Source: Melioribacteraceae bacterium
GTDB lineage: Bacteria; Bacteroidota; Ignavibacteria; Ignavibacteriales; Melioribacteraceae
Direction: 5' to 3'
NCBI GenBank assembly: GCA_021739765.1
Contig: JAIPBD010000010.1
Location: 81,001 to 145,000, forward strand
Length of the DNA: 64,000 nt
A program made the position numbers and the translations under genes. The notes under the pieces were generated by a model. That model saw nothing but the letters and a program-made list of their open reading frames with translations, was not told where the DNA came from and did not search any database. Positions 5,729-21,293 of this stretch are shown in pieces. How positions within the stretch are numbered: the first letter of the stretch is position 1; every line of letters starts with the position of its first letter.

Positions 5729-6536
5729 AATCAAAGCCGGTTCATGGATTTTTATTGTACTAATTTTGACGATTTATGCGTGTGATGAAAAACCGCCGCT
5801 TAATAATCGTGTTGTCGCGCGAGTTGGAGATTACGAATTGACCGATCACCAGTTGGATTCGTTAATGGGGGCAAAATTTTACTCCAATAAAATAAAAAAT
5901 GAATTGATCAGGCAATGGATCGAAAAACAAATGGTTTATTCTGAAGCAGTCGAGAACAACGTTTTGGAATCTGAAGATTATAAATTTGTAATCGGTAATT
6001 CGGAAAAGGAGCTGGCCGCTGCTTTGCACTTAAAAGTAATATTGGGCGATAGACTAAACCAAATCTCCGAAAGAGAATTAAAAGAATATTTTGATGAGCG
6101 GAAATCAGATTTCCGTTTGAATAGTGAAGCATTTTCCTTTTATTCGGCTGAGTTTTATGATAAACAAGATGCGATCAATTTTCGAAAAGATGCATTAAAC
6201 GATTGGCAGAATGCGTTAACTGCTCACGAACAAAAAATTGCCGTCAAATATGAAACCGGTTTCGACTATGATTTTAATATCGAGCCGGTACCATTATTAA
6301 GAGTACTGAACGAATTGTATATAAATGAAGTAAGTGTAATATTAAATTTGAAACCAAGGTTGTTCACAGTTGTTCAACTGAAAGATAAGTTCACAAAAGG
6401 TGATATTCCCTCTTTCGAATCTGTAAAATCTCAGATCCGTAAAAGATTAGAGATACAAACCAAGAAGGACATTTATAAAGAATATATCGACAAACTTTAC
6501 TCAAAGTATGAAGTCGAAATAAACGAGGTTAATTGA
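5709..6536 (+). CDS. SurA-N-like lipoprotein, catalytically empty PpiC relative
   Basis: The 275-residue product starts with a hydrophobic segment and lipobox-like ILTIYAC near residue 25, so it is probably a lipoprotein. The following region (RVVARVGDYELTDHQLDSLM) resembles the N-terminal chaperone part of SurA/PpiC proteins, but no parvulin motif (HILI, GGDLG, GYHI) is seen afterwards; the C-terminal helix ends in a KR-rich region. It overlaps the upstream isomerase by 20 bases and the downstream SurA gene by a few bases, implying translational coupling. A holdase or adaptor role for the neighbouring isomerases is an inference. Confidence 0.7.
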   Translation: MLKPLNRIKAGSWIFIVLILTIYACDEKPPLNNRVVARVGDYELTDHQLDSLMGAKFYSNKIKNELIRQWIEKQMVYSEAVENNVLESEDYKFVIGNSEKELAAALHLKVILGDRLNQISERELKEYFDERKSDFRLNSEAFSFYSAEFYDKQDAINFRKDALNDWQNALTAHEQKIAVKYETGFDYDFNIEPVPLLRVLNELYINEVSVILNLKPRLFTVVQLKDKFTKGDIPSFESVKSQIRKRLEIQTKKDIYKEYIDKLYSKYEVEINEVN

Positions 6537-7807
6537 TGAAGAAATTATTGTTTTGTTTTTTGATGATTGTTTATTCAGCTCTGAACGCACAAGAGGTGCT
6601 GGATAAAATTGTTGCTGTAGTTGATGAAGAAATTATTTTAAAATCTGAAGTGGAGCTAAAAGTTGTAATGTTTGCTTCACAAAGAAATTTAGACCCGACG
6701 AGCGAAGACTTAAAAAGGACCGTTCTAAATGAATTAATAAATGAAAAATTATTATTCGCTCAAGCTGAGCTTGATTCGATTGTGATATCGGAGGATGAAG
6801 TAAAAGCGCAACTTGAATATCAGATGAATTATTTTATTCAACAACTTGGTTCGAAAGAAAGAGTTGAACAGGCTTACGGAATGAGTATGGAAAAGATGCG
6901 CCGTGAGCTCAAAGACGAAGTTGAGAAGAATCTGATGACGCAAAGAGTAAAAGCGAAAAAATTTGCTGAAATAAGTGTGACTCGAAGAGAAGTAAAAGAG
7001 TTTTTTGAAAATTATAAAGATTCGCTTGGCCTCATCCCGCAAAAATTTACTCTATCCCACATTTTTATTAATCCGAATACAAACTATAGAGTTAAACAAA
7101 GAGCTTTTGAAACCGCAAAAACTTTGCTGGATTCAATTCAAAAAGGAGCTGATTTTGCGGCTCTTGCTGAAGAATATTCAGACGATCCCGGCAGTGCCGT
7201 AAAAGGTGGTGATTTGGGTTATGTTAAGAGAGGCGTATTCTTCCCCCAATTTGAGGCCGCGGCTTACGCGCTTCAACCGGGCGAAATATCGAAAGTTGTT
7301 GAAACTCCGGTCGGCTATCACATTATTGAGATGCTCGATAGGAGAGGAGAATCGATTAAAACACGACACATATTAATAAAGCCCGAAAGCGACGATGATT
7401 CTGATCTTGAAGCGATTGAGTTTTTGGCTTCGTTAAGAGATAGCATTCAACAAGGCGTAAATACTTTTGAGTATTATGCGAAGGTGTATAGTGATGATAA
7501 GGAAAGCTCTAAAAAATTAGGACAACTTGGAGTATTTGAACTAGATCAACTTGATAAGCCACTTCTTGATCAAGTGTATAAATTGGAAGTCGGAGAAATT
7601 GGATTTCCCAAAAGACTTCAAGTAAATAAAGACACTTACGGATTTCACATCCTAAGATTGGATAAACGAACAAATGCACATAAACCCGATTTTGAAACCG
7701 ATTATGAAGAGATTAAACAACTCGCGGATTTTAATAAAAAACAGCGCTTGTTTAATGAATGGTTGAAAAGCTTGAGGGAAGAAATATTCTGGGAAATTAA
7801 GGCATAG
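6536..7807 (+). CDS. surA: SurA-like periplasmic chaperone with two parvulin domains
   Basis: The 423-residue protein has a signal peptide (ending near ALNAQ), a SurA N-terminal chaperone domain (VLDKIVAVVDEEIILKSEVE, the classic SurA opening) and two rotamase domains. The first, at about residues 170-275, has LSHIFI, GGDLGYVKRGVF and GYHIIEM; the second, at about 277-385, has TRHILI and GFHILRL. Family function is folding of outer-membrane beta-barrels. ATG 6536 overlaps the TGA of the upstream gene and is preceded by GAGG; the in-frame TTG at 6533 is less likely. It ends 7 bases before the MoxR gene. Confidence 0.9.
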   Translation: MKKLLFCFLMIVYSALNAQEVLDKIVAVVDEEIILKSEVELKVVMFASQRNLDPTSEDLKRTVLNELINEKLLFAQAELDSIVISEDEVKAQLEYQMNYFIQQLGSKERVEQAYGMSMEKMRRELKDEVEKNLMTQRVKAKKFAEISVTRREVKEFFENYKDSLGLIPQKFTLSHIFINPNTNYRVKQRAFETAKTLLDSIQKGADFAALAEEYSDDPGSAVKGGDLGYVKRGVFFPQFEAAAYALQPGEISKVVETPVGYHIIEMLDRRGESIKTRHILIKPESDDDSDLEAIEFLASLRDSIQQGVNTFEYYAKVYSDDKESSKKLGQLGVFELDQLDKPLLDQVYKLEVGEIGFPKRLQVNKDTYGFHILRLDKRTNAHKPDFETDYEEIKQLADFNKKQRLFNEWLKSLREEIFWEIKA

Positions 7808-7814
7808 GATAATT

Positions 7815-8813
7815 TTGGATAATAAAGAAACAACTATTGATGATGTTGAATTGGTTGCTAAACTAAATTCAACAGTTGCTGAATTAAAATCGGAAATCGG
7901 TAAAGTAATTATTGGTCAGGAAGAAGTTATTGATAATCTTCTAACAGGACTTTTAGCCCGAGGACATTGTCTTTTAGTCGGTGTTCCCGGACTGGCAAAA
8001 ACGTTATTAATCAAAACTCTTGCCGAAGTTTTAGACTTGAAGTTTAATAGAATCCAATTTACACCGGATTTAATGCCGAGTGATATAACCGGTACTGAGA
8101 TTATTGAAGAAGATCAAGTTACAAAAAAACGATCCTTCAGATTTATTCAAGGTCCTATCTTCGCCAACGTAATTCTCGCAGATGAAATAAACAGAACTCC
8201 GCCCAAAACCCAAAGCGCTTTATTGGAAGCGATGCAAGAGCATAAAATTACCGCTGCCGGACAAACTTATGATCTCGGTGATCCTTTTTTCGTTCTCGCA
8301 ACCCAAAATCCTATCGAGCAAGAAGGAACTTATCCGTTACCCGAGGCTCAACTCGATAGATTTATGTTTAATCTTTGGCTGGGTTATCCCTCTTACGAGG
8401 ATGAAATTAATATCATTAAATCAACAACAAGTGACTATCAACCTAACCTGAAGAAAACTGTTTCTACTTCGCAATTAGTAGAATTTCAAGATCTGGTTAG
8501 AAGGGTTCCGGTTGCCGATAATGTTATCGAATATGCGGTGAAATTTGTAAATGCAACTCGCCCAAACACAAAAAATTCGAAGGAATTTGTTAATGAATGG
8601 GTTAATTGGGGCGCCGGTCCGCGTGCCTCTCAATATTTGATTTTATCGGCAAAAGCTAAATCAATTATGGCGGGACGTTATACACCAAACATTGATGACG
8701 TGAAATCTTCTTTGATTCCCGTTTTAAGACACAGAATTATTCCAAATTTTAATGCCGAGGCAGAAGGAATAAACTCAGTAGAAATTATCAAAAAAATTGA
8801 AGAATCCATTTGA
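7815..8813 (+). CDS. MoxR-family AAA+ ATPase
   Basis: The 332-residue cytoplasmic ATPase carries Walker A GVPGLAKT at about residues 56-63, Walker B VILADEINRTPPKTQ near 118-132, and the sensor region ATQNPIEQEGTYPLPEAQLDRF that is hallmark for MoxR. MoxR ATPases act as chaperones in maturation of enzymes or of VWA-domain proteins, but the usual DUF58/VWA partner genes are not next to it here. It starts with TTG 7815 and overlaps the next gene by four bases (TTGA), showing tight coupling to a PQQ-like propeller gene. The substrate is unknown. Confidence 0.9.
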   Translation: MDNKETTIDDVELVAKLNSTVAELKSEIGKVIIGQEEVIDNLLTGLLARGHCLLVGVPGLAKTLLIKTLAEVLDLKFNRIQFTPDLMPSDITGTEIIEEDQVTKKRSFRFIQGPIFANVILADEINRTPPKTQSALLEAMQEHKITAAGQTYDLGDPFFVLATQNPIEQEGTYPLPEAQLDRFMFNLWLGYPSYEDEINIIKSTTSDYQPNLKKTVSTSQLVEFQDLVRRVPVADNVIEYAVKFVNATRPNTKNSKEFVNEWVNWGAGPRASQYLILSAKAKSIMAGRYTPNIDDVKSSLIPVLRHRIIPNFNAEAEGINSVEIIKKIEESI

Positions 8814-10273
8814 TTTTCCATAAACGAATTTTTCTTTCGGCTCTGTTTATTATTGCATTTTGTGCTACTTCACTATTCTCACAAGCCCAAATAAGTGATG
8901 ATGAAGTTATTATCGGTACATTCCTCGGAAACGAAAAACGAAATTATTACGGTTCCAATCCCCCGGATAATCTAAATATTAATTGGAAACATTATCTGGG
9001 TGAAGGCATAACAATAATCTCAACAGGACCGGACACATTATTGTGGAAGGGGAGTGGTTGGACGGGGCAGCCTCTGCTTATAAAAGAGAATAATGAGCTT
9101 TATCTCATACAGGCTTCACTCGATCACAATCTGAAAAAAATTAAAGCCACAACGGGAGAGTTGGTCTGGGAATACAAATTTGATGATGTACTAAAGGGAA
9201 CAGGAACGATTTGGGAAAATAATTCCGCAAAAAATCCGGAAGACCGATTTATTATTTTACAAGGCAGCCGCCGGGGTAATGATAAAACGATGTACTCGAA
9301 AATTGTCCCGAGTTTTCGGGCGATTTCATACGGATCCGGCAAAGAATTATGGCGGCTCAACATTCGCAAAACCCGAAGTTATAGTCGAGATATGGATGCG
9401 TCACCTCTAATTATCAACGATACCATTTATACACCGCTCGAAAACTCAACATTCGTTTTAATCGATTTAAAAGCCAAATTTGAAGTTGGCAGAGACGGAA
9501 AAAACTATGCCAATATCATTCAAGAATCCTTGTTATACAAACAGCAAGATGTTTTGAAACATGGCGGGAATCTAGTGGCCGAAAGTTCACCTGCGCGAAT
9601 AAATGATCACCTTTATATTCCGGCAGGTTCTGGTTGGGTTTTTGGATACGATCTGATTAAAAAGAGAATCGATTGGGAGTATTTTATCGGCTCGGATATT
9701 GACGGAAGCCCGGTCGTGACCGGAGATGATTGTATCTTAGTTTCGATTGAAAAGCAATATATCGATGGAAATGGCGGAGTAATAAAACTAAATCCGGCAA
9801 AAGATCCGAAAAATGCCGTAGAATGGTTCTTCCCGACTGAAAATGTAGATTATGAGTCTTGGGAAGGTGGAGTTATAGGATCTGCGAGTGTGAACGATTA
9901 TTACAATAAATCCGGCCGCAAAAATTTGGCTTCGTTTATTGCATTGGATGGATTTCTATATTTAGTGGATTATTCCGAAATTGACAATTCCAAAGGTCAA
10001 GTTTGGGGACCTAATAACAAAATGAAATTCCCAACTCCCAAACTGCTCGATAAATTTGACATTGGTCCATCGATTTCGACTCCAATAATTGTTGATAACA
10101 AAATTATCGCCGCATCTTATAGCGGGCTGTATTTATTCAGGATAACCGAAAATTACACCCTTCAACTAATTGATAAAATAACGGGTTTTGGCTTTGAGGC
10201 GACTCCAATTGTTTATCAAGGAAAATTATACATCGGTGCAAAAGATGGTTATTTGTACTGCCTTGGGAATTAA
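8810..10273 (+). CDS. Secreted PQQ-like beta-propeller protein
   Basis: The 487-residue product has an N-terminal signal peptide (ending near SQAQ, residue 27) and repeated propeller blades of the PQQ/PQQ_2 type, with motifs such as ATTGELVWEYKF, GSGKELWRLNI, YDLIKKRIDWEYF, and a final GKLYIGAKDGYLYCLGN. Such folds occur in BamB-like scaffold proteins and quinoprotein dehydrogenases. No dehydrogenase active-site segment was recognised, so a structural or binding role is more likely. Its start TTG lies inside the MoxR stop codon region, and the M23 peptidase follows after 11 bases. Context suggests an envelope function, perhaps BamB-like, which is an inference. Confidence 0.75.
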   Translation: MIFHKRIFLSALFIIAFCATSLFSQAQISDDEVIIGTFLGNEKRNYYGSNPPDNLNINWKHYLGEGITIISTGPDTLLWKGSGWTGQPLLIKENNELYLIQASLDHNLKKIKATTGELVWEYKFDDVLKGTGTIWENNSAKNPEDRFIILQGSRRGNDKTMYSKIVPSFRAISYGSGKELWRLNIRKTRSYSRDMDASPLIINDTIYTPLENSTFVLIDLKAKFEVGRDGKNYANIIQESLLYKQQDVLKHGGNLVAESSPARINDHLYIPAGSGWVFGYDLIKKRIDWEYFIGSDIDGSPVVTGDDCILVSIEKQYIDGNGGVIKLNPAKDPKNAVEWFFPTENVDYESWEGGVIGSASVNDYYNKSGRKNLASFIALDGFLYLVDYSEIDNSKGQVWGPNNKMKFPTPKLLDKFDIGPSISTPIIVDNKIIAASYSGLYLFRITENYTLQLIDKITGFGFEATPIVYQGKLYIGAKDGYLYCLGN

Positions 10274-11544: not shown

Positions 11545-14500
11545 TTATTTAAAAGCACTTCTGACTAAGTTCTCTTGTGTTTTCATAAACAATTTGCTTG
11601 AACCGTTCGCCGGACTTGGGTTTTCATCTCTTCCGCAATAATCCAGTTTTTTCCCTTTCGGTAAATCATTAATCAATTTTGGGAATAAATAGTACCATGC
11701 TCCCATATTTTGCGGCTCTTCCTGAACCCAGACAATTTTTTTCGCTTTCGGGTAAGTATCAAAAATATTTCTTATTCCGATCGGATCGTATGGATAATAT
11801 TGTTCAAGTCGGATAATCGCGGTGTCTTTAATTTCATTCATATCACGAAATTTCTCAAGTTCGTAATAAACTTTTCCACTGGTGAACAGAATTCTTTCAA
11901 TTTTGTTTTTATCCTTATCCTCAATATTATCATCAATTATATTCCTAAAAGTTCCATCAGTAAAATCTTTAATTTCTGATCTTGCCGCTGGCAGTCGAAG
12001 TAAACTTTTTGGTGTAAGCACGATTAAAGGTTTTTCGATTCTGGTTAGTATTTGCCTTCTCAACAAGTGAAAATACTGAGCCGGTGTTGTCGGATTCGCT
12101 ACCACCATATTGTTTTCGCCGCATAGAATCAAAAATCTTTCCAATCTTGCGCTGCTGTGCTCGGGCCCTTGACCTTCTTGGCCGTGAGGAAGTAACATTA
12201 CAAGATTGTTCGGGAGATTCCATTTCACTTCTGCTGATGCAATAAAGTTATCAATTATAACTTGCGCACCGTTCGCAAAATCGCCAAACTGTGCTTCCCA
12301 AAGTACTAATGCCAGCGGATCAGCCGCGCTAAATCCAAATTCAAAACCGAGAACTGCGTTTTCGGAAAGAAGACTGTCTAATGCTTCAAGCGTTTCTTGA
12401 TTTTCGCGGATATGATTATGCGGTAAAACTTCCTCGCCTGTGTTGATATCCGTAAAGATTAGATGTCTTTGACTAAAAGTACCGCGCGCACTATCCTGAC
12501 CGCTAAGTCTTACCGGAGAACCTTCCAGTAATAATGTTCCGAACGCGAGCGCTTCGCCAAACGCCCAGTCTATTCTGGCGTTTCCTGTAAGCAATTCTTT
12601 TCGTTTATTAATGTGTTTTTTCAACTTAGGATTAAGCGTGAAATTTTCGGGAAAGTTTGTGATACCTTTAACAACTTCAACCAGTCTTTCTTTCGTAACT
12701 CTTGTTTCATAAACCACTTTTGCGTTTTTCAAGGTCTCCATTGAAATCGCGAGTGGTCGATCTGGCTTAAACATTTGTTTTTTGTTTTTTGAAGATTTTA
12801 ATGATTTTTCAAGAGTTTTATATACCTCTTCCTCCATCGATTTTATCTCTTTTTCAGAAAAGGTGTGATCATCAACTAACTTTTTAGCGTAAATATTTTT
12901 AACCGATGGATGCGCTTTGATCTTTTTATACATTAAAGGTTGCGTATAAACCGGATCGTCACCTTCATTATGACCATGTCTGCGGTAACCAAAAAGATCG
13001 ATCACAACATCTTTGTTAAACCGCTGCCGATAATCGAAGGCAAGTTTTGTCACCCAAATTGATGCTTCGGGATCATCGCCGTTTACATGGAAGATTGGAG
13101 CTTGAACCATTTTCGCGACATCCGTTGCATAAGGTGATGACCTGGCATCTTCGGGTGCGGTTGTAAATCCAATTTGATTGTTGATGATCAAATGAATCGT
13201 TCCGCCCGTTCTATATCCTTTTAATTGCGACAAGTTCAAAGTCTCCGCGACGATCCCTTGTCCGGCAAATGCGGCATCACCGTGTATTAAAAGTGGAATA
13301 ATTTTATTGCGGTCCAGATCGTTTTTGCGGGTTTGTTTTGCCCGAACAATTCCTTCAACAACGGGATTAACGAATTCCAAGTGACTCGGATTGGAAGCAA
13401 CCGAAACTTGAATTTCTTTGTTAGTCATAGTTTTATAAGTTCCCGTCGCGCCAAGGTGGTATTTAACATCGCCTGTTCCTTGCGGAGAATCCGGATCAAT
13501 ATCATCTTCAAATTCTGAAAAAATTTGATCGTACGATTTCCCGATTATGTTTGAAAGCACGTTCAATCTGCCTCGATGCGCCATCCCGAGGAAAACTTCT
13601 TCAACTCCATCTTCGGCTGAGAGACTAAGTATGTAGTCGAGAACGGGAATAACGGTTTCTGATCCTTCCAGTGAAAATCTTTTATGACCGATAAACTTTG
13701 TATGAAGAAAATGTTCGAAACTTTCCGCGATAATCAATTTTTCCAGAACTCGTTTTTTTGTTTGATCATCATATTTAGGACTATTTCTGATTGGCTCCAT
13801 TCTGCTCATCAGCCAATATTTTTCTTCGGGATTCTGGATATGCATAAATTCAGCGCCAACTTTTTCGCAATAGGTATGATGTAAAGCATCAAGAATTTCA
13901 CGAAGCGTTGCTTTCTCTAAACCTTGTAAGTTGCCTGTGATAAATTCCCTGTCATAATCCCAAATTGTGAATCCATAACTCGCGGGATCTAATTCAGTGT
14001 AATAATCGGGTTTAAATGCTAATGGATTCAGATTTGCATTTAGGTGCCCACGGACTCGATAAATATTTATCAATAAAGGAATTTGAGCTTGTTTACTGAT
14101 TTCTTCCATATGAGCCGCTGAACCGTAAGATGAAGATGTTGTGTCAACACCCCATGAAACTGGACTCTGAGGAATTTCCAGGTCATCGTAAATTTGTTCG
14201 TAAAAATTATCGTCACCTCTGAGCAAACTATCGATTTCTTTCAAAAATTCACCGGATTCAGCACCCTGGATTATTCGATGGTCATAAGTACTGGTCATGT
14301 TCATCACTTTACCGATTCCCAAACCGGCAAGAGCGGATTGACTCATAGCCTTAAATTCGGCAGGATAATCGATGGCGCCCACAGCAATGATGCAGCCCTG
14401 TCCGGTCATTAATCTTGGCGTTGAAGATACAGTCCCGATTCCTCCGGGATTTGTTAAACTAATTGTTGTTCCTTGAAAATCAGACGGTTCAATTTTACCG

Positions 14501-15186
14501 GTTCTTGTTCTAGTTATAAGGTCATCATAAGCAGCTTTAAATTGTGCGAAATTCATTTGAGACGCTTTTTTGATATTCGGAACGATGAGTGACCGGGTAC
14601 CATTTTTACGAATCATATCAACGGCAATGCCAAGATTGATAAATGGCTTTTTTACGAGGTGTGGTTTGTCATCAACAAGCGCAAAAGAATTGTTTAATGA
14701 TGAAAATTTTCTGATTGCTTTTACAATTGCATAAGCGACAACATGCGAATACGAAATTTTGCCGCCGTTAATTCGTTTTAAATGATGATTGATAATTCGT
14801 CTATTTTCTTCAAGTAGTTTTACCGAAACCGTTCTTAATGAAGTTGCAGTTGGAATTGTTAAACTGCTATCCATATTCTCAATAATTTTTGCACCGATTC
14901 CGGTAATTAATTCCGCTTCATCGTCGGACGAGATTTCAAACGAGGGGGATAGGTTTTGTTTTGCGACAGAAGTTGAAGACTGTTTGGCTACCGGTTTTGA
15001 TTCTTCGGAAGCCGTTCCATTACCAAATTTTGTAATTTTATCGAAATAGCTCTTCCAATACTCCGATACGGATTCTCTATCTTCTAAATATTTTTCCAAT
15101 AAATCAGAAACAAATCCAAAATTGTATCCAAAATGTTCAAATAATTCTTTGTGAAAATCTTCCACCTTTTTCATGTAAGCAGCCAT
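11545..15186 (-). CDS. kgd: Fused 2-oxoglutarate dehydrogenase E2-E1 (multifunctional, Kgd-type)
   Basis: The 1213-residue enzyme joins three parts: a short E1 N-terminal helix region (residues about 5-50, HFGYNFGFVSDLLEKYLED), a Ser/Ala-rich linker, an E2 acyltransferase catalytic domain (about 85-335, with the active-site motif DHRIIQG near 297-303), and a full thiamine-diphosphate E1 (about 360-1213, with GMAHRGRLNVL near 534 and HNEGDDP). There is no lipoyl domain. This is the architecture known from actinobacterial Kgd/OdhA, which decarboxylates 2-oxoglutarate in the TCA cycle and uses lipoyl domains supplied by another protein. Start MAAYMKK: the second Met is an alternative. It is divergent from the lysine operon. 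Confidence 0.93.
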   Translation of the reverse strand: MAAYMKKVEDFHKELFEHFGYNFGFVSDLLEKYLEDRESVSEYWKSYFDKITKFGNGTASEESKPVAKQSSTSVAKQNLSPSFEISSDDEAELITGIGAKIIENMDSSLTIPTATSLRTVSVKLLEENRRIINHHLKRINGGKISYSHVVAYAIVKAIRKFSSLNNSFALVDDKPHLVKKPFINLGIAVDMIRKNGTRSLIVPNIKKASQMNFAQFKAAYDDLITRTRTGKIEPSDFQGTTISLTNPGGIGTVSSTPRLMTGQGCIIAVGAIDYPAEFKAMSQSALAGLGIGKVMNMTSTYDHRIIQGAESGEFLKEIDSLLRGDDNFYEQIYDDLEIPQSPVSWGVDTTSSSYGSAAHMEEISKQAQIPLLINIYRVRGHLNANLNPLAFKPDYYTELDPASYGFTIWDYDREFITGNLQGLEKATLREILDALHHTYCEKVGAEFMHIQNPEEKYWLMSRMEPIRNSPKYDDQTKKRVLEKLIIAESFEHFLHTKFIGHKRFSLEGSETVIPVLDYILSLSAEDGVEEVFLGMAHRGRLNVLSNIIGKSYDQIFSEFEDDIDPDSPQGTGDVKYHLGATGTYKTMTNKEIQVSVASNPSHLEFVNPVVEGIVRAKQTRKNDLDRNKIIPLLIHGDAAFAGQGIVAETLNLSQLKGYRTGGTIHLIINNQIGFTTAPEDARSSPYATDVAKMVQAPIFHVNGDDPEASIWVTKLAFDYRQRFNKDVVIDLFGYRRHGHNEGDDPVYTQPLMYKKIKAHPSVKNIYAKKLVDDHTFSEKEIKSMEEEVYKTLEKSLKSSKNKKQMFKPDRPLAISMETLKNAKVVYETRVTKERLVEVVKGITNFPENFTLNPKLKKHINKRKELLTGNARIDWAFGEALAFGTLLLEGSPVRLSGQDSARGTFSQRHLIFTDINTGEEVLPHNHIRENQETLEALDSLLSENAVLGFEFGFSAADPLALVLWEAQFGDFANGAQVIIDNFIASAEVKWNLPNNLVMLLPHGQEGQGPEHSSARLERFLILCGENNMVVANPTTPAQYFHLLRRQILTRIEKPLIVLTPKSLLRLPAARSEIKDFTDGTFRNIIDDNIEDKDKNKIERILFTSGKVYYELEKFRDMNEIKDTAIIRLEQYYPYDPIGIRNIFDTYPKAKKIVWVQEEPQNMGAWYYLFPKLINDLPKGKKLDYCGRDENPSPANGSSKLFMKTQENLVRSAFK

Positions 15187-15446: not shown

Positions 15447-15614
15447 ATGGCAGCCGAATGTCCGGTCTGTGGTGCTGATATTGAGTTTCCGGAAGGCACA
15501 GTTGAAAATGAATTAATCGAATGCCCGGATTGCGGAACTGAATTGGAAGTCATCTCCGTCGATCCTCCCAAAGTTGAAGAAGCTCCGAGTGAAGAAGAAG
15601 ATTGGGGTCAGTAA
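15447..15614 (+). CDS. lysW: LysW amino-group carrier protein, C-terminus EDWGQ
   Basis: This 55-residue acidic protein carries alpha-aminoadipate during lysine synthesis. It has a zinc-ribbon with two CxxC pairs (C5/C8 and C26/C29) and the family's C-terminal EDWG motif. In characterised LysW proteins the last residue is Glu, whose gamma-carboxyl is joined to alpha-aminoadipate by LysX. Here the last codon is CAG (15609-15611), giving Gln. The ATG follows a good GAGG Shine-Dalgarno with a five-base gap. The stop codon is immediately followed by the TTG start of homocitrate synthase, with zero spacing. Identity as LysW is firm; how the Gln terminus works is not. Confidence 0.95.
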   Translation: MAAECPVCGADIEFPEGTVENELIECPDCGTELEVISVDPPKVEEAPSEEEDWGQ

Positions 15615-16778
15615 TTGTTAAAAATACTTGATACAACCCTTCGCGAAGGTGAACAAACCCCCGGTGTTTATTTCGATCTGCACATAAAATCCGCAATTGC
15701 CGATTTATTGGATGAAATCGGTGTGGATATTATCGAAGTTGGTCACCCGGCTGTTACAGAAGAAATTAGACTGGCTGTTAGTTCGATCGCGAAAAGAGGA
15801 TTAAATGCCAGAGTAGGTGCTCATTCCAGAACAACCTTAAATGATGTTGAACTTGCTTTAGATTGTGGTGTTGGGTTTCTGGGAATTTTCTACTGTGTTT
15901 CCAATGATAGACTTAACGGTGTATTTAAAAAAGAACTTTCTCATGCCATCGGGCAAATTCAAGAAATGATCACACTGATCAAATCTAAAAATTCAGATAT
16001 TATTGTTCGATATACTCCCGAAGATACTGTCAGATCAAAATATGAAAATGTGTTTTCAGCCGCCTCCGCTGCGGTTGAAGCCGGAGCTGATGTAATTTCG
16101 ATCGCCGATACAACCGGATTTATGATCCCGGGAACATCGCATAATATGTACGATCATGTTAAGAGATTAAAAGCTGATCTGGCTGAAAAGAATTTATTCC
16201 CCATGATCGCGGTTCACTGTCATAACGATAGAGGTCTTGCACTTGCCAATGCGTTGGATGCTTATCGCGGAGGGGCTGAGATTATCGATGCTTCCGTAAT
16301 CGGATTAGGAGAAAGGGCCGGTATTGTTGATTTAGCTCAACTCCTTGTAACATTATCATCCGGATTTGGGTTTGAAAACAGATGGGATTTGAAAAAACTA
16401 GTTGAACTTTATGACCTTGTAAGCAAACATTCAGGTGTAACAATTTCTAAAAATTTTCCTATAATTGGTGAAAATGCATTTACACATTGTGCGGGTGTAC
16501 ATACACATGCTGCCGCAATCAATCCAATGCATTACGAAAGTCTTGATCCTGCACTAGTTGGCAGAGAGCGTACATTTGCATTAGACCATATGTCCGGAAT
16601 TGCATCAGTAAAATATGCGCTTGAATTAATCGGTATTTTCAATCCTGATAAAGAAACTATTCAAGAAGTATTATTTGAAGTAAAAAAAGTTGGTCAAAAA
16701 GGACGACTTGTCGATCTTACCGAACTTCCTCATATCGTAAAATCTATAAAACACATCAAGTCTACAGCTGTTAAGTAG
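15615..16778 (+). CDS. Homocitrate synthase
   Basis: The 387-residue enzyme belongs to the DRE-TIM (LeuA/homocitrate synthase) family and should condense acetyl-CoA with 2-oxoglutarate to homocitrate, the first step of the alpha-aminoadipate lysine pathway. The metal- and substrate-binding opening ILDTTLREGEQTPG is at residues 3-16, RYTPEDTVRS near 136-145, and the metal-ligand motif HCHNDRGLALANAL near 200-213; the C-terminal segment holds GENAFTHCAGVHTH. The start is TTG directly after the lysW stop. Placement between lysW and lysX argues for homocitrate synthase rather than isopropylmalate or citramalate synthase. Confidence 0.9.
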   Translation: MLKILDTTLREGEQTPGVYFDLHIKSAIADLLDEIGVDIIEVGHPAVTEEIRLAVSSIAKRGLNARVGAHSRTTLNDVELALDCGVGFLGIFYCVSNDRLNGVFKKELSHAIGQIQEMITLIKSKNSDIIVRYTPEDTVRSKYENVFSAASAAVEAGADVISIADTTGFMIPGTSHNMYDHVKRLKADLAEKNLFPMIAVHCHNDRGLALANALDAYRGGAEIIDASVIGLGERAGIVDLAQLLVTLSSGFGFENRWDLKKLVELYDLVSKHSGVTISKNFPIIGENAFTHCAGVHTHAAAINPMHYESLDPALVGRERTFALDHMSGIASVKYALELIGIFNPDKETIQEVLFEVKKVGQKGRLVDLTELPHIVKSIKHIKSTAVK

Positions 16779-16815: not shown

Positions 16816-17658
16816 ATGAAAATAGGATTTTTACATTCCGTTATGCGAAGAGACGAAAAGTTATTACTGGAGGCTTTTAATAAGAGACCAAATATTGAAT
16901 TAGAATTAATTGACGATCGAAAGTTAGCTTTTAATATCAGTCATAATAAATTTTCGTACGATACGGTAATTGAAAGAGCAATAAACCACTCACGGGCATT
17001 GCACGCGATAAGGCTTTTCGAAAGTGAAGGTATCAAATGTGTCAATAATTCTAAAGTTGCGACTATCTGTGGAGATAAATTATTAACTTCAATTAATCTG
17101 AAAGAACATAATATTCCTCAACCGGAAGTTAGAGTTGCTTTTACCGAAGAATCCGCGCTTGAAACTATTGAGGACATGGGTTATCCGGTGGTTCTTAAAC
17201 CGGCCGTTGGATCGTGGGGAAGATTGCTCTCAAAAATAAATGACCGTGACGCGGCAGAATCAATTTTGGAGCATAAAGCTATTCTCGGTACATATCATCA
17301 TTCGATTTTTTATATCCAAAAGTATGTTGCAAAACAAGGGCGTGATATCCGCAGCTTTGTAATCGGTGATGAGTGTATTGCCGCAATTTACAGGACTTCC
17401 GAGCATTGGATTACAAATACGGCGCGAGGTGCGGTAGCATCAAAATGTGAGATGAATGATGAGATTTTCGATCTTTCGGTTAGAGCCGCAAAGGCCGTTG
17501 GTGGAGGCGTTGTCGCAATCGATCTTTTCGAAACAGATGAAGGTTACTCAGTAAACGAAGTTAATTATACAATGGAATTTAAGAATAGTATTGATACAAC
17601 CGGAGTTAATATCCCGGATAAAATCGTAGATTATGTAATTAGTGAAGGCACAAAATGA
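16816..17658 (+). CDS. lysX: LysX, LysW-alpha-aminoadipate ligase (ATP-grasp)
   Basis: The 280-residue RimK-related ATP-grasp ligase attaches the alpha-amino group of alpha-aminoadipate to the C-terminal side chain of LysW. Visible ATP-grasp features are the [11 protein letters not shown] segment near 83-93, the lysine in [17 protein letters not shown] near 120, and the C-terminal metal site [11 protein letters not shown] (about 255-265), which is typical of LysX. Length fits the family. The stop overlaps the lysY ATG (ATGA). It could in principle act on Glu as well (ArgX-like), which sequence alone cannot decide. How it handles a LysW ending in Gln is an open question. Confidence 0.93.
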
Positions 17659-18704
17659 TGAACAAAATCTCAGTATCTATTGTCGGCGGCTCCGGATACG
17701 CTGGGGGAGATTTAATCCGATTATTACTCTTCCATCCAAACGTTGAACTAAAACAAGTTACTTCCGAGCGATTTTTAGGTAAAGCACTTTATAAGGTACA
17801 TCCAAATCTTAGAAAGCAAACTGATCTAAAATTTTGTGCTATTGATGAATTGGAGTCGTGTGATGTTATATTTCTGTGTTTGCCTCATGGCAAAGCTATG
17901 GGAAGTATCGAAAAATTTAATTTGCTGGCTGACAAAATAATAGATTTAAGTGCTGACTTTAGACTAAACAATCCTGCTGAATTCAAAAAATGGTATGGCG
18001 AGGATCATAAATTTCCTGAAAAATTGAACGAATTTGTTTATGGAATTCCGGAACTTCACCGTGAGGAAATGAAAACTGCAAAATATATTTCTAGTGCGGG
18101 TTGTAATGCAACGACTACAATTTTAGGTCTTTATCCATTATATAAAGAAGGTTTGGTTGAACCGGATAGAACGGTTGTTGAAGTAAAAGTAGGTTCGAGT
18201 GAAGGGGGAAACAGGTCAACTGAATCCAGTCACCATCCGGTGAAAGATGGGTCGGTTCGTTCATATCAACCTACTCAACACAGGCATACGGCTGAAATAA
18301 TACAAGAGCTCTCTTTTGGCAAAGAGATTAAAATTCATTTTTCCGCCACTGCTCTGGATATCGTACGCGGTATTCTCGCGACTTCACATGTTTTCTTAAA
18401 TCAGGAATTAGAAGAAAAGGATATTTGGAAGCTTTATAGAAAATATTATGCGAACGAATATTTTATTCGTATCGTGAAGGAAAAAGAGGGCAATTACCGT
18501 TACCCCGAACCGAAAATAGTTGCCGGTACAAATTTTTGCGATATTGGGTTTAAGAAAGATGAAGAATCAAACCGATTGGTTGTGATTTCTTCAATTGATA
18601 ACTTGATGAAAGGGGCCGCGGGACAGGCGCTTCAGGCATTTAATATTATGAATGGATTGGAAGAAAAAACCGGGCTTGAGTTTCCGGGTCTTCATCCTTA
18701 TTAA
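17655..18704 (+). CDS. lysY: LysY, LysW-aminoadipyl-6-phosphate reductase (ArgC family)
   Basis: The 349-residue NADPH-dependent reductase is homologous to ArgC and converts the LysW-bound aminoadipyl phosphate to the semialdehyde. The Rossmann motif [18 protein letters not shown] is at residues 7-25, and the catalytic cysteine lies in [10 protein letters not shown] near 149-155. HRHTAEI and the C-terminal [16 protein letters not shown] are family hallmarks. ATG 17655 overlaps the lysX stop; ATG 17658 is a near alternative. The surrounding lysW/X/Z/J genes favour LysY over ArgC. A dual role in arginine synthesis is possible, since no arg genes are in the window. Confidence 0.93.
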
Positions 18705-18715
18705 ACCGTCAATTT

Positions 18716-19351
18716 ATGTGTCGATTACTTTATATAAAATCAAAAAATGAATTTGAGATTCCGGAATACCTGAATAGATTTTCTAAAATTTGTAAAAAGA
18801 GCAAAGAATTTCAAGGACACGGATGGGGAATTTCATACATCAAAAATGATGAGTGGATTCACTACAAAAACGTCTCACCGATTTGGGATGATAATCTGAC
18901 ACGGTTCCCAGAATCAAATCAAATAATCGTACATGCCCGAAGTGCTTTTCAGGATAAAGATATTCGCGTCGAAAATAATATGCCGTTTTACGATACTAAT
19001 CGAGTTTTTATTTTTAATGGCGAACTTCGGGGTGTAAAAATTAAAGCTGAAGGAAGAATTGGAGCGGAGAAAATCTTCAATTTTATTAATCGATTTTTCA
19101 AAAATGATTATCTGGAAGCTTTGAAAAAGGGAACTGAAGTAATTATCAAAAGAAGTGGTTATGTTCGTGCGATGAATATTATTGTATCGGACAAATCCAA
19201 TGTTTTTGTCTCATCCACTTTTAATGAAGATCCGGAATATTTTCAAATGAAATTTGCGAATCAAGATGATAGATTAATGATTTGTTCTGAGGAACTGGAA
19301 GGAATTCCAGATTGGAAATTGATCGAAAATAATTCAGTGAGGAAGTTTTAA
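18716..19351 (+). CDS. Class II glutamine amidotransferase-like (EgtC/YafJ type) amidohydrolase in the lysine operon
   Basis: The 211-residue protein begins MCRLL: removal of Met exposes Cys2, the N-terminal nucleophile of class II amidotransferase domains. Other family features are GHGWGISYI (about 38-46), VHARSA (about 72-77, Arg for substrate carboxylate), FNGEL (about 99-103, the oxyanion N-G pair; the usual His before NG is Phe) and a C-terminal CSEELEG. There is no synthase domain, so it is a stand-alone hydrolase like EgtC, which cuts gamma-glutamyl amides. Its TAA overlaps the lysZ ATG by one base (TAATG), so it belongs to the operon. Possible roles are deamidation of the LysW C-terminal Gln or release of lysine from LysW; both are inference. 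Confidence 0.82.
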   Translation: MCRLLYIKSKNEFEIPEYLNRFSKICKKSKEFQGHGWGISYIKNDEWIHYKNVSPIWDDNLTRFPESNQIIVHARSAFQDKDIRVENNMPFYDTNRVFIFNGELRGVKIKAEGRIGAEKIFNFINRFFKNDYLEALKKGTEVIIKRSGYVRAMNIIVSDKSNVFVSSTFNEDPEYFQMKFANQDDRLMICSEELEGIPDWKLIENNSVRKF

Positions 19352-20142
19352 TGATAATCGTGAAAATCGGTGGTGGTGAAAATATTAATATCAGCGGTGT
19401 AATAGCTGATCTCGCGAAACTTGATGAAAAGTTTATTGTCGTTCATGGAGCAAATGCGCTTAGAGATGAACTTGCCCAAAAACTGAATTATGAAAAGAAG
19501 ATTCTTACATCTGTATCAGGCTATCAAAGTGTCTATTCTGATGACGAAGCGCTTGATAGTATGATGATGGCTTATTCAGGATTAAGAAATAAACGCATTG
19601 TTGAAGAGTTTCAAAAAAATGGTGTTAATGCTGTTGGAATTACCGGTTTGGATGGCAAAACAATTCAAGGAAAAAGAAATAAAGGAATCAGGGTTCGTGA
19701 AAATGGGAAGTTGAAAATGCTTCGTGATTTTTCCGGCAAACCCCAGTCTGTCAACACAGATCTTATTAATCTTTTATTGGATAATAATTACACTCCGGTT
19801 TTAACAATGCCAATTATTGATGAAACGGGTTACGCGATAAATTCGGAAAATGATGATGTTGTAGCAGTCCTTCAAAAAGAATTAAAAGCCGGCAAAGTAA
19901 TTCAATTAATTGAAGCAACGGGATTTTTAGAAAATTCGAAAGACGATTCCTCTGTGATACACAAAATCACGAAAGCTGAATTGGAAACTAAAGAGCATCA
20001 AGTAGAAGGCCGTATGAAACGAAAAGTTTTAGCACTAAGAAATTTATTTGAATCTTCCGATACAACCGTTTATATCTCAGACGGTAGAACCGAACATCCG
20101 ATTGAAGACGCACTTAACGGAAAAGGAACGGTGATAGAATGA
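19351..20142 (+). CDS. lysZ: LysZ, LysW-aminoadipate 6-kinase (amino acid kinase family)
   Basis: The 263-residue kinase of the ArgB/acetylglutamate kinase fold phosphorylates the LysW-bound aminoadipate side chain with ATP. Seen are the phosphate-binding MIIVKIGGGE at the N-terminus, VVHGAN near 31-36, GITGLDGKTIQGKRNKGI near 97-115, and the C-terminal EGRMKRKVLALRNL segment, typical for LysZ. The start overlaps the stop of the amidohydrolase gene by one base, and its end overlaps the lysJ start by four bases (ATGA), consistent with tightly coupled expression. Confidence 0.94.
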   Translation: MIIVKIGGGENINISGVIADLAKLDEKFIVVHGANALRDELAQKLNYEKKILTSVSGYQSVYSDDEALDSMMMAYSGLRNKRIVEEFQKNGVNAVGITGLDGKTIQGKRNKGIRVRENGKLKMLRDFSGKPQSVNTDLINLLLDNNYTPVLTMPIIDETGYAINSENDDVVAVLQKELKAGKVIQLIEATGFLENSKDDSSVIHKITKAELETKEHQVEGRMKRKVLALRNLFESSDTTVYISDGRTEHPIEDALNGKGTVIE

Positions 20143-21293
20143 GCAGAACCATAGACTTGCAAAATAAGTATGAATTTGATGTTTATCCAAAGCGTGATCT
20201 TGTTATAAACAGAGGCAAAGGTGCTAAGGTTTGGGATGAAAACGGACGGGAATTTATTGATTGCATCGGTGGAATTGCCGTTGCTTCAGTTGGTCATGCA
20301 AACGAAAACGTCGTTAAAGCAATAAGCGATCAGGCGGCAAAGCTAATCACTTGTCCCGGTATTTTTTACAATGAAACAAAAGCAAAATTTTTAGAAAAGT
20401 TAATTTCGATTGCGCCGCATCCTTTGAAAAGAGCCTTTATTACAAATTCGGGAACCGAAGCGGTGGAAGCAGCGCTAAAATTCGCAAGATTTTCAACCGG
20501 TAAAACGGATTTTATTTGCGCAATGAAAGGATTTCACGGCAGAACTTTCGGCGCGATGAGCGCAACTTTTAAAAAGGAATATCGGGAAATTTATGAACCG
20601 AACGTGCCCGGGTTTTCATTTGTTCCTTTTAATAATATCGAAAAGTTAAAAGATAAAGTAACCGATAAAACAGCCGCGATAATGTTAGAAGTTATTCAAG
20701 GTGAAGGCGGAATTAATATTGGTGAAAAAGAGTATCTAAAAGAAGTAAACAATTTTTGCAAAGCAAACGGTATTTTGTTGATTGTTGATGAAATCCAAAC
20801 CGGATTTGGTCGGACAGGTAAAATGTTTGCATCGGAATATTATGAAATTGAACCCGATATGATGACTGTTGCAAAAGCTATTGCGGGAGGTTTCCCATTA
20901 GGAGCGGTTTTGTGCGCGGAATCTGTTCAAATCCCTAAGGGAAAACATGGCTCAACCTTCGGCGGCAATCCATTGGCTTGCGCTGCGGGATTGGCGGCAA
21001 TGGAATTTATCACAGCTAACGATCTTCCCCAAAAGGCAAAAGATTCAGGTGAATATTTTATCGCTAAAATAAGGGATATCAAATCGGATAAAATTCGAGA
21101 TATAAGAGGACTTGGTTTGATCATCGGAATCGAGCTAAAAGAAAAAGTTCAACCATACATTCTCAAATTGATGGAAGAAAATATTTTAACGCTCCCTGCC
21201 GGCGTAACTGTCCTTAGACTTGTTCCTCCGCTCGTAATAACAAATGAAGAAATCGATCTTGTTGTTGAAAAATTAAGTACAGTGCTTGCATAA
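20139..21293 (+). CDS. lysJ: LysJ, LysW-aminoadipate-semialdehyde transaminase (PLP class III)
   Basis: The 384-residue aminotransferase of the ArgD/acetylornithine group converts the LysW-bound semialdehyde to LysW-lysine, with glutamate as donor. The PLP-binding features are NSGTEAVEAALKFAR near 106-120, IVDEIQTGFGRTGKMF near 214-229, and the Schiff-base lysine in TVAKAIAGGFPLGA (Lys246). Length matches the family. It is the last visible gene of the lysine operon; no lysK deacetylase-type peptidase, homoaconitase, homoisocitrate dehydrogenase or lysN gene follows, so those steps must be encoded elsewhere or replaced. Confidence 0.94.
   Translation: MSRTIDLQNKYEFDVYPKRDLVINRGKGAKVWDENGREFIDCIGGIAVASVGHANENVVKAISDQAAKLITCPGIFYNETKAKFLEKLISIAPHPLKRAFITNSGTEAVEAALKFARFSTGKTDFICAMKGFHGRTFGAMSATFKKEYREIYEPNVPGFSFVPFNNIEKLKDKVTDKTAAIMLEVIQGEGGINIGEKEYLKEVNNFCKANGILLIVDEIQTGFGRTGKMFASEYYEIEPDMMTVAKAIAGGFPLGAVLCAESVQIPKGKHGSTFGGNPLACAAGLAAMEFITANDLPQKAKDSGEYFIAKIRDIKSDKIRDIRGLGLIIGIELKEKVQPYILKLMEENILTLPAGVTVLRLVPPLVITNEEIDLVVEKLSTVLA

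Follow-up and report, generated by a model that had tools for sequence, protein, structure and literature searches.

The window analysed here, a stretch of 64,000 nucleotides from a Melioribacteraceae bacterium, carries an operon whose genes, as named by Pfam and NCBIfam profile matches, follow the order lysW-lysS-lysX-lysY-GAT-lysZ-lysJ. The features are as follows.

15447..15614, + strand: lysW, 55-aa amino-group carrier protein ending in EEDWGQ (TIGR01206, 71.4 bits; cut-off 53.2)
15615..16778, + strand: lysS-like homocitrate synthase homologue, HMGL-like (PF00682, 205 bits)
16816..17658, + strand: lysX, ATP-grasp ligase loading the carrier (TIGR02144, 343 bits; cut-off 275.6)
17655..18704, + strand: lysY, argC-like reductase (TIGR01850, 403 bits; cut-off 233.6)
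18716..19351, + strand: GAT, stand-alone Ntn hydrolase of the class II amidotransferase fold, proposed [LysW]-lysine hydrolase and putative LysW-Gln deamidase
19351..20142, + strand: lysZ, [LysW]-aminoadipate kinase (NF010659, 246.7 bits; cut-off 223)
20139..21293, + strand: lysJ, class III aminotransferase (PF00202, 386 bits; TIGR00707, 447.6 bits, cut-off 410)

By its TIGR01206 score the window LysW belongs to the zinc-ribbon carrier family, and its tail reads EDWGQ in place of EDWGE, the terminal Gln being encoded by CAG at 15609-15611. The name of lysS rests on the operon, because its scores against both the homocitrate synthase model (TIGR02146, 341 bits; cut-off 413.55) and the isopropylmalate synthase model (NF002085, 345 bits; cut-off 517) stay below threshold; lysJ likewise reaches 459 bits against the LysJ model NF042418, below its cut-off of 700. 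Next to lysW, on the minus strand at 11545-15186, lies a 1213-aa protein that we read from its sequence as a 2-oxoglutarate dehydrogenase E1 with an N-terminal E2-type catalytic domain. The GAT frame encodes 211 amino acids, begins with MCRLL and contains VHAR and FNGE; re-reading confirmed the MC start, the VHAR and NG motifs and the one-base overlap with lysZ given in the preliminary description, and the absence of a synthase domain that it reported was borne out as well. No synthase partner was seen, so an ammonia-supplying amidotransferase is not supported.

GAT matches only two models in Pfam and NCBIfam at E <= 0.01, GATase_4 (21.3 bits; cut-off 23) and EgtC (TIGR03442, 41.5 bits; cut-off 218.65), both below threshold. 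It has the alpha-beta-beta-alpha class II glutamine amidotransferase/Ntn hydrolase fold with an N-terminal Cys, and the nearest solved fold is EgtC (4zfj, 4zfk, 4zfl) at 15% identity. The label 'EgtC-like' first attached to the protein is therefore right for the fold and wrong for the family, since the EgtC score falls far short and the neighbours are lysW/S/X/Y/Z/J, with no egtABCDE context. GAT does not belong to the LysK family (TIGR01902, M20) either, as no M20 model matches it at this threshold.

Six residues, Cys2, Arg75, Asn101, Gly102, Gly116 and Glu118, are invariant in all 81 GATs compared (80 loci and the window), whose starts were set by a pattern requiring Cys-Arg at residues 2-3 that all 80 satisfy. 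The sequence sets A1 and A2 hold 12 of the 15 GATs from the sample of the window's phylum and 38 sequences, respectively. Arg75 and Asn101-Gly102 align with their counterparts in GlmS and PurF, and from the roles established in class II amidotransferases we take the former to bind the substrate alpha-carboxylate and the latter to form the oxyanion hole. In these amidotransferases the Asp of the motif S-x-[TS]-D-[ST]-E (GlmS Asp123) binds the free alpha-amine of the substrate glutamine. GAT has Gly116 at this position in 81 of 81 sequences (codon 19061-19063 in the window). The clearest comparison is with a paralogue, L198, from an archaeon that also has GAT; it reads SETDSEQIF at the columns where GAT reads GRIGAEKIF. 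GlmS, PurF and one EgtC-like sequence also place an Asp in the Gly116 column in one MAFFT alignment, with hhalign concurring for the EgtC-like one, and a second EgtC-like sequence (L138) aligns a Gly there with uncertain placement. The substitution argument rests on L198, because MAFFT placed GlmS, PurF and EgtC differently in a second alignment; hhalign against single sequences yielded no usable alignment for GlmS and PurF, and L136 (Nonomuraea) gave no usable EgtC frame. Retention of the Arg together with loss of the Asp would be what a protein C-terminal residue calls for, its carboxylate being free and its amine engaged in a peptide bond.

The distribution of GAT follows that of the carrier protein. 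Among 296 genomes of the window's phylum, 15 encode GAT and 15 encode LysW, and these are exactly the same genomes; GAT was found in none of the 281 LysW-negative genomes of the sample. A search of 84,980 species genomes found 234 relatives and listed 80 loci. Going by their record titles, these come from Ignavibacteria/Melioribacter, Bacteroidetes, Calditrichota, Deltaproteobacteria, Binatia, Gammaproteobacteria, SAR324, Phycisphaerales, KSB1, Woesearchaeota and the archaeon AR15. At all 80 of these loci GAT shares a strand with LysW-pathway genes. LysZ is present at 78 of them, and at the other two (L088, L091) the contig stops within 60 bases past GAT; where both LysY and LysZ are found, GAT lies between them in 72 of 73 loci. 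The exception, L121, has an alcohol-dehydrogenase-like frame (a reading of its sequence) rather than lysY before GAT at 264-1500 and another argC-like gene further on; the lysW of this genome lies on another contig, and the locus is perhaps a rearrangement or an assembly join.

These neighbourhoods bear on the possibility that GAT is a mere operon passenger acting on glutamine or a free small-molecule gamma-glutamyl amide, in the manner of a glutaminase or of EgtC. Such a role would agree with EgtC being the nearest solved fold, and EgtC does cleave a free gamma-glutamyl compound according to the available text of PMC9103826. We regard it as highly improbable, given that a Gly occupies the place of the Asp that holds a free alpha-amine in 81 of 81 GATs, and that GAT was not found away from LysW-pathway genes among the 80 loci listed, nor in any of the 281 LysW-negative genomes.

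Several loci depart from the common arrangement in other respects. A woesearchaeotal operon (L092) has an extra frame of ~344 amino acids between lysY and GAT, at 8258-9289, which clusters with frames in L103, L104 and L107. Two archaeal GAT operons, L240 (4057-5965) and L242 (about 6193-7900), carry two LysX-like genes each, which may serve the separate loading of glutamate and aminoadipate. On a Staphylococcus epidermidis plasmid (L130, NZ_CP043848.1, 5001-10168) a LysW ending in EEDWGE accompanies a RimK-like ligase, a DegT aminotransferase, ArgC and an M20 hydrolase, a set that looks like a carrier-protein biosynthetic cluster.

Which enzyme, then, releases the product from LysW in these genomes? 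The usual candidate, LysK, was sought with the model TIGR01902 (cut-off 163.1 bits), which gave 329 bits on a Deinococcus plasmid used as a positive control. In the window's phylum, none of the 15 genomes with GAT (21 genomes searched) gave a match above the cut-off, and neither did the genomes behind 48 of the 80 loci or the six GAT genomes of the samples from the phyla of AR15 and of the Phycisphaerales genome, three of which are also among the 48. Altogether LysK exceeds the cut-off in 0 of 66 distinct GAT genomes, the best score below it being 117.4 bits (G393). The lack of lysK noted originally for the window operon thus extends to all the GAT genomes searched.

The same two additional samples provide the counterpart. 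LysW matches occur in 5 of 193 genomes of the phylum of AR15 and in 21 of 294 genomes of the phylum of the Phycisphaerales genome. Six of these 26 LysW genomes have GAT and none of the six has LysK; among the 20 that lack GAT, 18 have LysK, with scores of 274 to 349 bits, so that the two genes do not overlap. One GAT-less genome, G713, falls short of the cut-off of 163.1 with a LysK match of 156.9 bits whose start is close to a contig end; another (G584), likewise without LysK above the cut-off, has a LysW-like frame ending in EEDWSE near 7408 of L239, with no lysX, lysY or lysZ found nearby. Pooled over the three LysW surveys, the mutual exclusion gives a Fisher p of 1.7e-10 without G584 and 9.4e-10 with it, kinship being ignored.

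Operon structure is in line with this exclusion. Six LysK operons have the order W-X-Y-Z-(J)-K and lack GAT, the Deinococcus plasmid reading S-T-U-W-X-Y-Z-J-K; GAT operons have the order W-(S)-X-Y-GAT-Z-J and lack LysK. In a tree of LysX, LysY and LysZ, which is limited to the 69 GAT operons with usable copies of all three, a single branch with support of 99 separates these from 7 LysK operons (a quick method, with long branches). On this tree the exclusion goes back to a single switch that then spread together with the operon, not to repeated independent swaps.

Could more distant M20 enzymes take the place of LysK? PF01546 was matched in 14 of 14 control genomes, and at E <= 1e-5 it found nothing in five of seven archaeal GAT genomes (AR15, G447, G316, G311, G333). 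M20 proteins are present in the other two, G361 and G393, and in all four bacterial GAT genomes tested; the window genome has seven PF01546 matches. A scan of the 80 loci for M20 used as queries the longest frames of 18 loci, several of which are not M20, and our conclusions on LysK and M20 rest on the genome searches instead. In the bacterial GAT genomes and in these two archaeal ones, M20 proteins scoring below the LysK cut-off might release lysine. GAT could in that case be an editing or quality-control hydrolase stripping wrong amino acids off LysW, with the final release left to a distant M20 or a non-M20 enzyme; it would cut the same bond, and the retention of M20 proteins in 4 of 4 bacterial GAT genomes tested is compatible with such a division of labour. 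It would leave unexplained, however, both the absence of LysK wherever GAT is present and the five archaeal GAT genomes without an M20 match, and we consider it very unlikely.

The C-terminus of LysW supplies a further line of evidence. LysW lies on the contig at 58 GAT loci, with a terminal Glu in 46 of them and a terminal Gln in 12; ten added GAT genomes divide equally (Gln in G000, G051, G062, G393 and G447; Glu in G014, G074, G124, G188 and G361), bringing the proportions to 17 of 68 with Gln and 51 of 68 with Glu. Two weak second LysW matches (L190, L191) were left uncounted. Gln-ending carriers include that of a named strain, Stygiobacter electus 09-Me (L115). None of the 27 GAT-less LysWs ends in Gln; all end in Glu (19 from genomes of the Phycisphaerales-phylum sample, 5 from plasmids and 3 from the PDB), a set that leaves out G584, and takes 5 of the 7 plasmid LysWs found. 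No plasmid record matched GAT; at the level of the whole genome, the PDB species and two of the plasmids (L131, L132) count as only presumably GAT-less. The difference, 17/68 against 0/27, has a Fisher p of 0.002, and for the surveyed genomes alone (5/21 against 0/19) p is 0.049, kinship being ignored in both.

On a tree of LysX, LysY, GAT and LysZ, built from the window and 57 of the 58 loci (one Glu locus without LysZ was left out), the terminal residue changed at least 7 times, six of the changes being forced by starred branches, and the Gln of the window sits beside a Glu row. As far as the consulted text of PMC10433800 goes, the product on LysW is linked to the gamma-carboxyl of the C-terminal Glu, and a terminal Gln should therefore need prior deamidation. 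The coming and going of Gln only within the GAT lineages of the sample fits an enzyme that would hydrolyse this side-chain amide.

Should GAT then be seen as a maturation deamidase only, converting LysW-Gln to LysW-Glu while another hydrolase releases lysine? The window LysW, by our reading of the part of PMC10433800 consulted, should not be loadable by LysX with its Gln end as it stands, and Gln is found in 17 of 68 GAT genomes against none of 27 others. Yet 51 of the 68 GAT genomes already encode Glu and nevertheless keep the catalytic residues of GAT, LysK exceeds its cut-off in none of 66 GAT genomes, and five of seven archaeal ones have no M20 match. We find this explanation very unlikely, and the LysW-Gln deamidation suggested initially was rejected as the conserved function in view of the 51 Glu-ending carriers. 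The co-occurrence proposed at the outset, of GAT with Gln-ending LysW and with loss of lysK, holds in full for lysK and in one direction for Gln: GAT does not imply Gln, but within the sample Gln occurs only with GAT.

Several observations bear on the nature of the released product. The window genome encodes ArgJ above the cut-off (480 bits), and its LysA-like protein reaches 224 bits, below the cut-off of 297.9. In the phylum sample, ArgJ exceeds its cut-off in 12 of 15 genomes with GAT, among them that of the window, which led us to discard a pathway for arginine only; in G062 it is a fragment at a contig end, below the cut-off, and no ArgJ match at E <= 1e-20 was found in the GAT genomes G031 and G124. 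The presence of ArgJ, the weak LysA match and the lysS-like gene make lysine the likely product in the window, and its lysS-bearing operon likely serves lysine synthesis. LysA exceeds its cut-off in 17 of 31 GAT genomes searched and in 20 when all 37 are counted; many of them thus have another lysine route besides the LysW pathway. No lysS match lies near the compact W-X-Y-GAT-Z-J operons listed from Gammaproteobacteria, Binatia and SAR324, and GAT may therefore release another amine there. Four such operons (L101, L107, L125 and L102) belong to genomes that also have LysA and ArgJ above the cut-off.

The archaeon AR15 carries the operon lysW-S-T-U-B-X-Y-GAT-Z-J on a chromosome record of 1,157,790 bases, where T, U and B are the large and small homoaconitase-type subunits and a homoisocitrate-dehydrogenase-type gene. 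AR15 gave no match to M20 at E <= 1e-5, nor to LysA or ArgJ at E <= 1e-20. Its assignment to lysine rests on the operon, because lysS passes the cut-offs of both homocitrate synthase (427 bits; 413.55) and a 2-isopropylmalate synthase subfamily (528.5 bits; 517), and lysT, lysU and lysB are named only at a subfamily level common to leucine enzymes.

We propose, with a probability of roughly four in five, that GAT is a non-orthologous replacement of LysK, a reading that we infer from sequence comparisons; the Cys chemistry that would free the amine could also deamidate LysW-Gln. The preliminary suggestion of a LysK substitute is strongly supported by the co-occurrence of GAT with LysW, its mutual exclusion with LysK, its operon position and the active-site pattern. 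The last step of the pathway appears to be carried out by this unrelated enzyme in the Melioribacteraceae bacterium as well as in many other bacteria and some archaea. The N-terminal Cys would attack the glutamyl residue that ends LysW at its gamma-carbonyl; lysine, or another amine product, would thereby be freed from the gamma-glutamyl amide, and the thioester would then be hydrolysed to give back LysW-Glu. The same chemistry would turn a C-terminal Gln into Glu, so that the maturation of LysW-Gln and the release of the finished product could fall to one enzyme; drift between Glu and Gln at the LysW C-terminus would be tolerated owing to this double activity. Deamidation is plausibly a second activity of GAT rather than the reason for its existence.

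An undescribed family of Cys-Ntn hydrolases, spread over several bacterial phyla and archaea, is probably responsible for both LysW-Gln maturation and lysine or amine release, rendering the Glu/Gln drift neutral. The consulted portion of the Caldithrix abyssi genome paper names LysWXZYJ together with Hcs in a single locus (Cabys_3146-3153) and considers that the lysine pathway of this organism may be incomplete or may involve non-orthologous displacement (PMC5317091). In the open-access literature covered, including passages of the GapMind paper and of a lysine-riboswitch paper, no report of an amidotransferase-type enzyme acting on LysW came to light. If our proposal is correct, it supplies the last step of carrier-protein lysine synthesis that is missing in Ignavibacteria, Calditrichota and some small-genome archaea, and probably the matching release step in related operons found in Binatia, SAR324 and some Gammaproteobacteria; it also gives a specific name to a protein that matches none of the curated models used here above cut-off. 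GAT would further allow an inexpensive test of how a glutaminase fold may be re-aimed at a protein C-terminus via the loss of one Asp, and the repeated Glu/Gln switch of LysW would be a natural record of an extra activity.

How does GAT compare with known systems? With GlmS, PurF and the paralogue L198 it shares the nucleophile, the carboxylate-binding Arg and the oxyanion Asn-Gly, but it lacks a synthase domain and has G-R-[IT]-G-A-E in place of their S-x-[TS]-D-[ST]-E. EgtC differs from it in sequence (15% identity; 41.5 bits against a cut-off of 218.65), and GAT stands apart by the Gly at the place expected of the alpha-amine Asp and by its LysW-operon context. LysK (M20, TIGR01902) has in common with GAT the place in the pathway and the proposed reaction, release of lysine from the LysW gamma-glutamyl amide; GAT, however, is of an unrelated family and chemistry, with an N-terminal Cys as nucleophile where LysK is an M20 metallopeptidase, and its gene lies between lysY and lysZ, whereas that of LysK follows lysZ/lysJ. 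A parallel in concept is Dop, a protein with a glutamine-synthetase-like fold that deamidates the C-terminal Gln of Pup to Glu, the same residue being later cut from an amine; deamidation of the C-terminal Gln of a small protein would be the idea common to Dop/Pup and GAT/LysW, realised in different folds.
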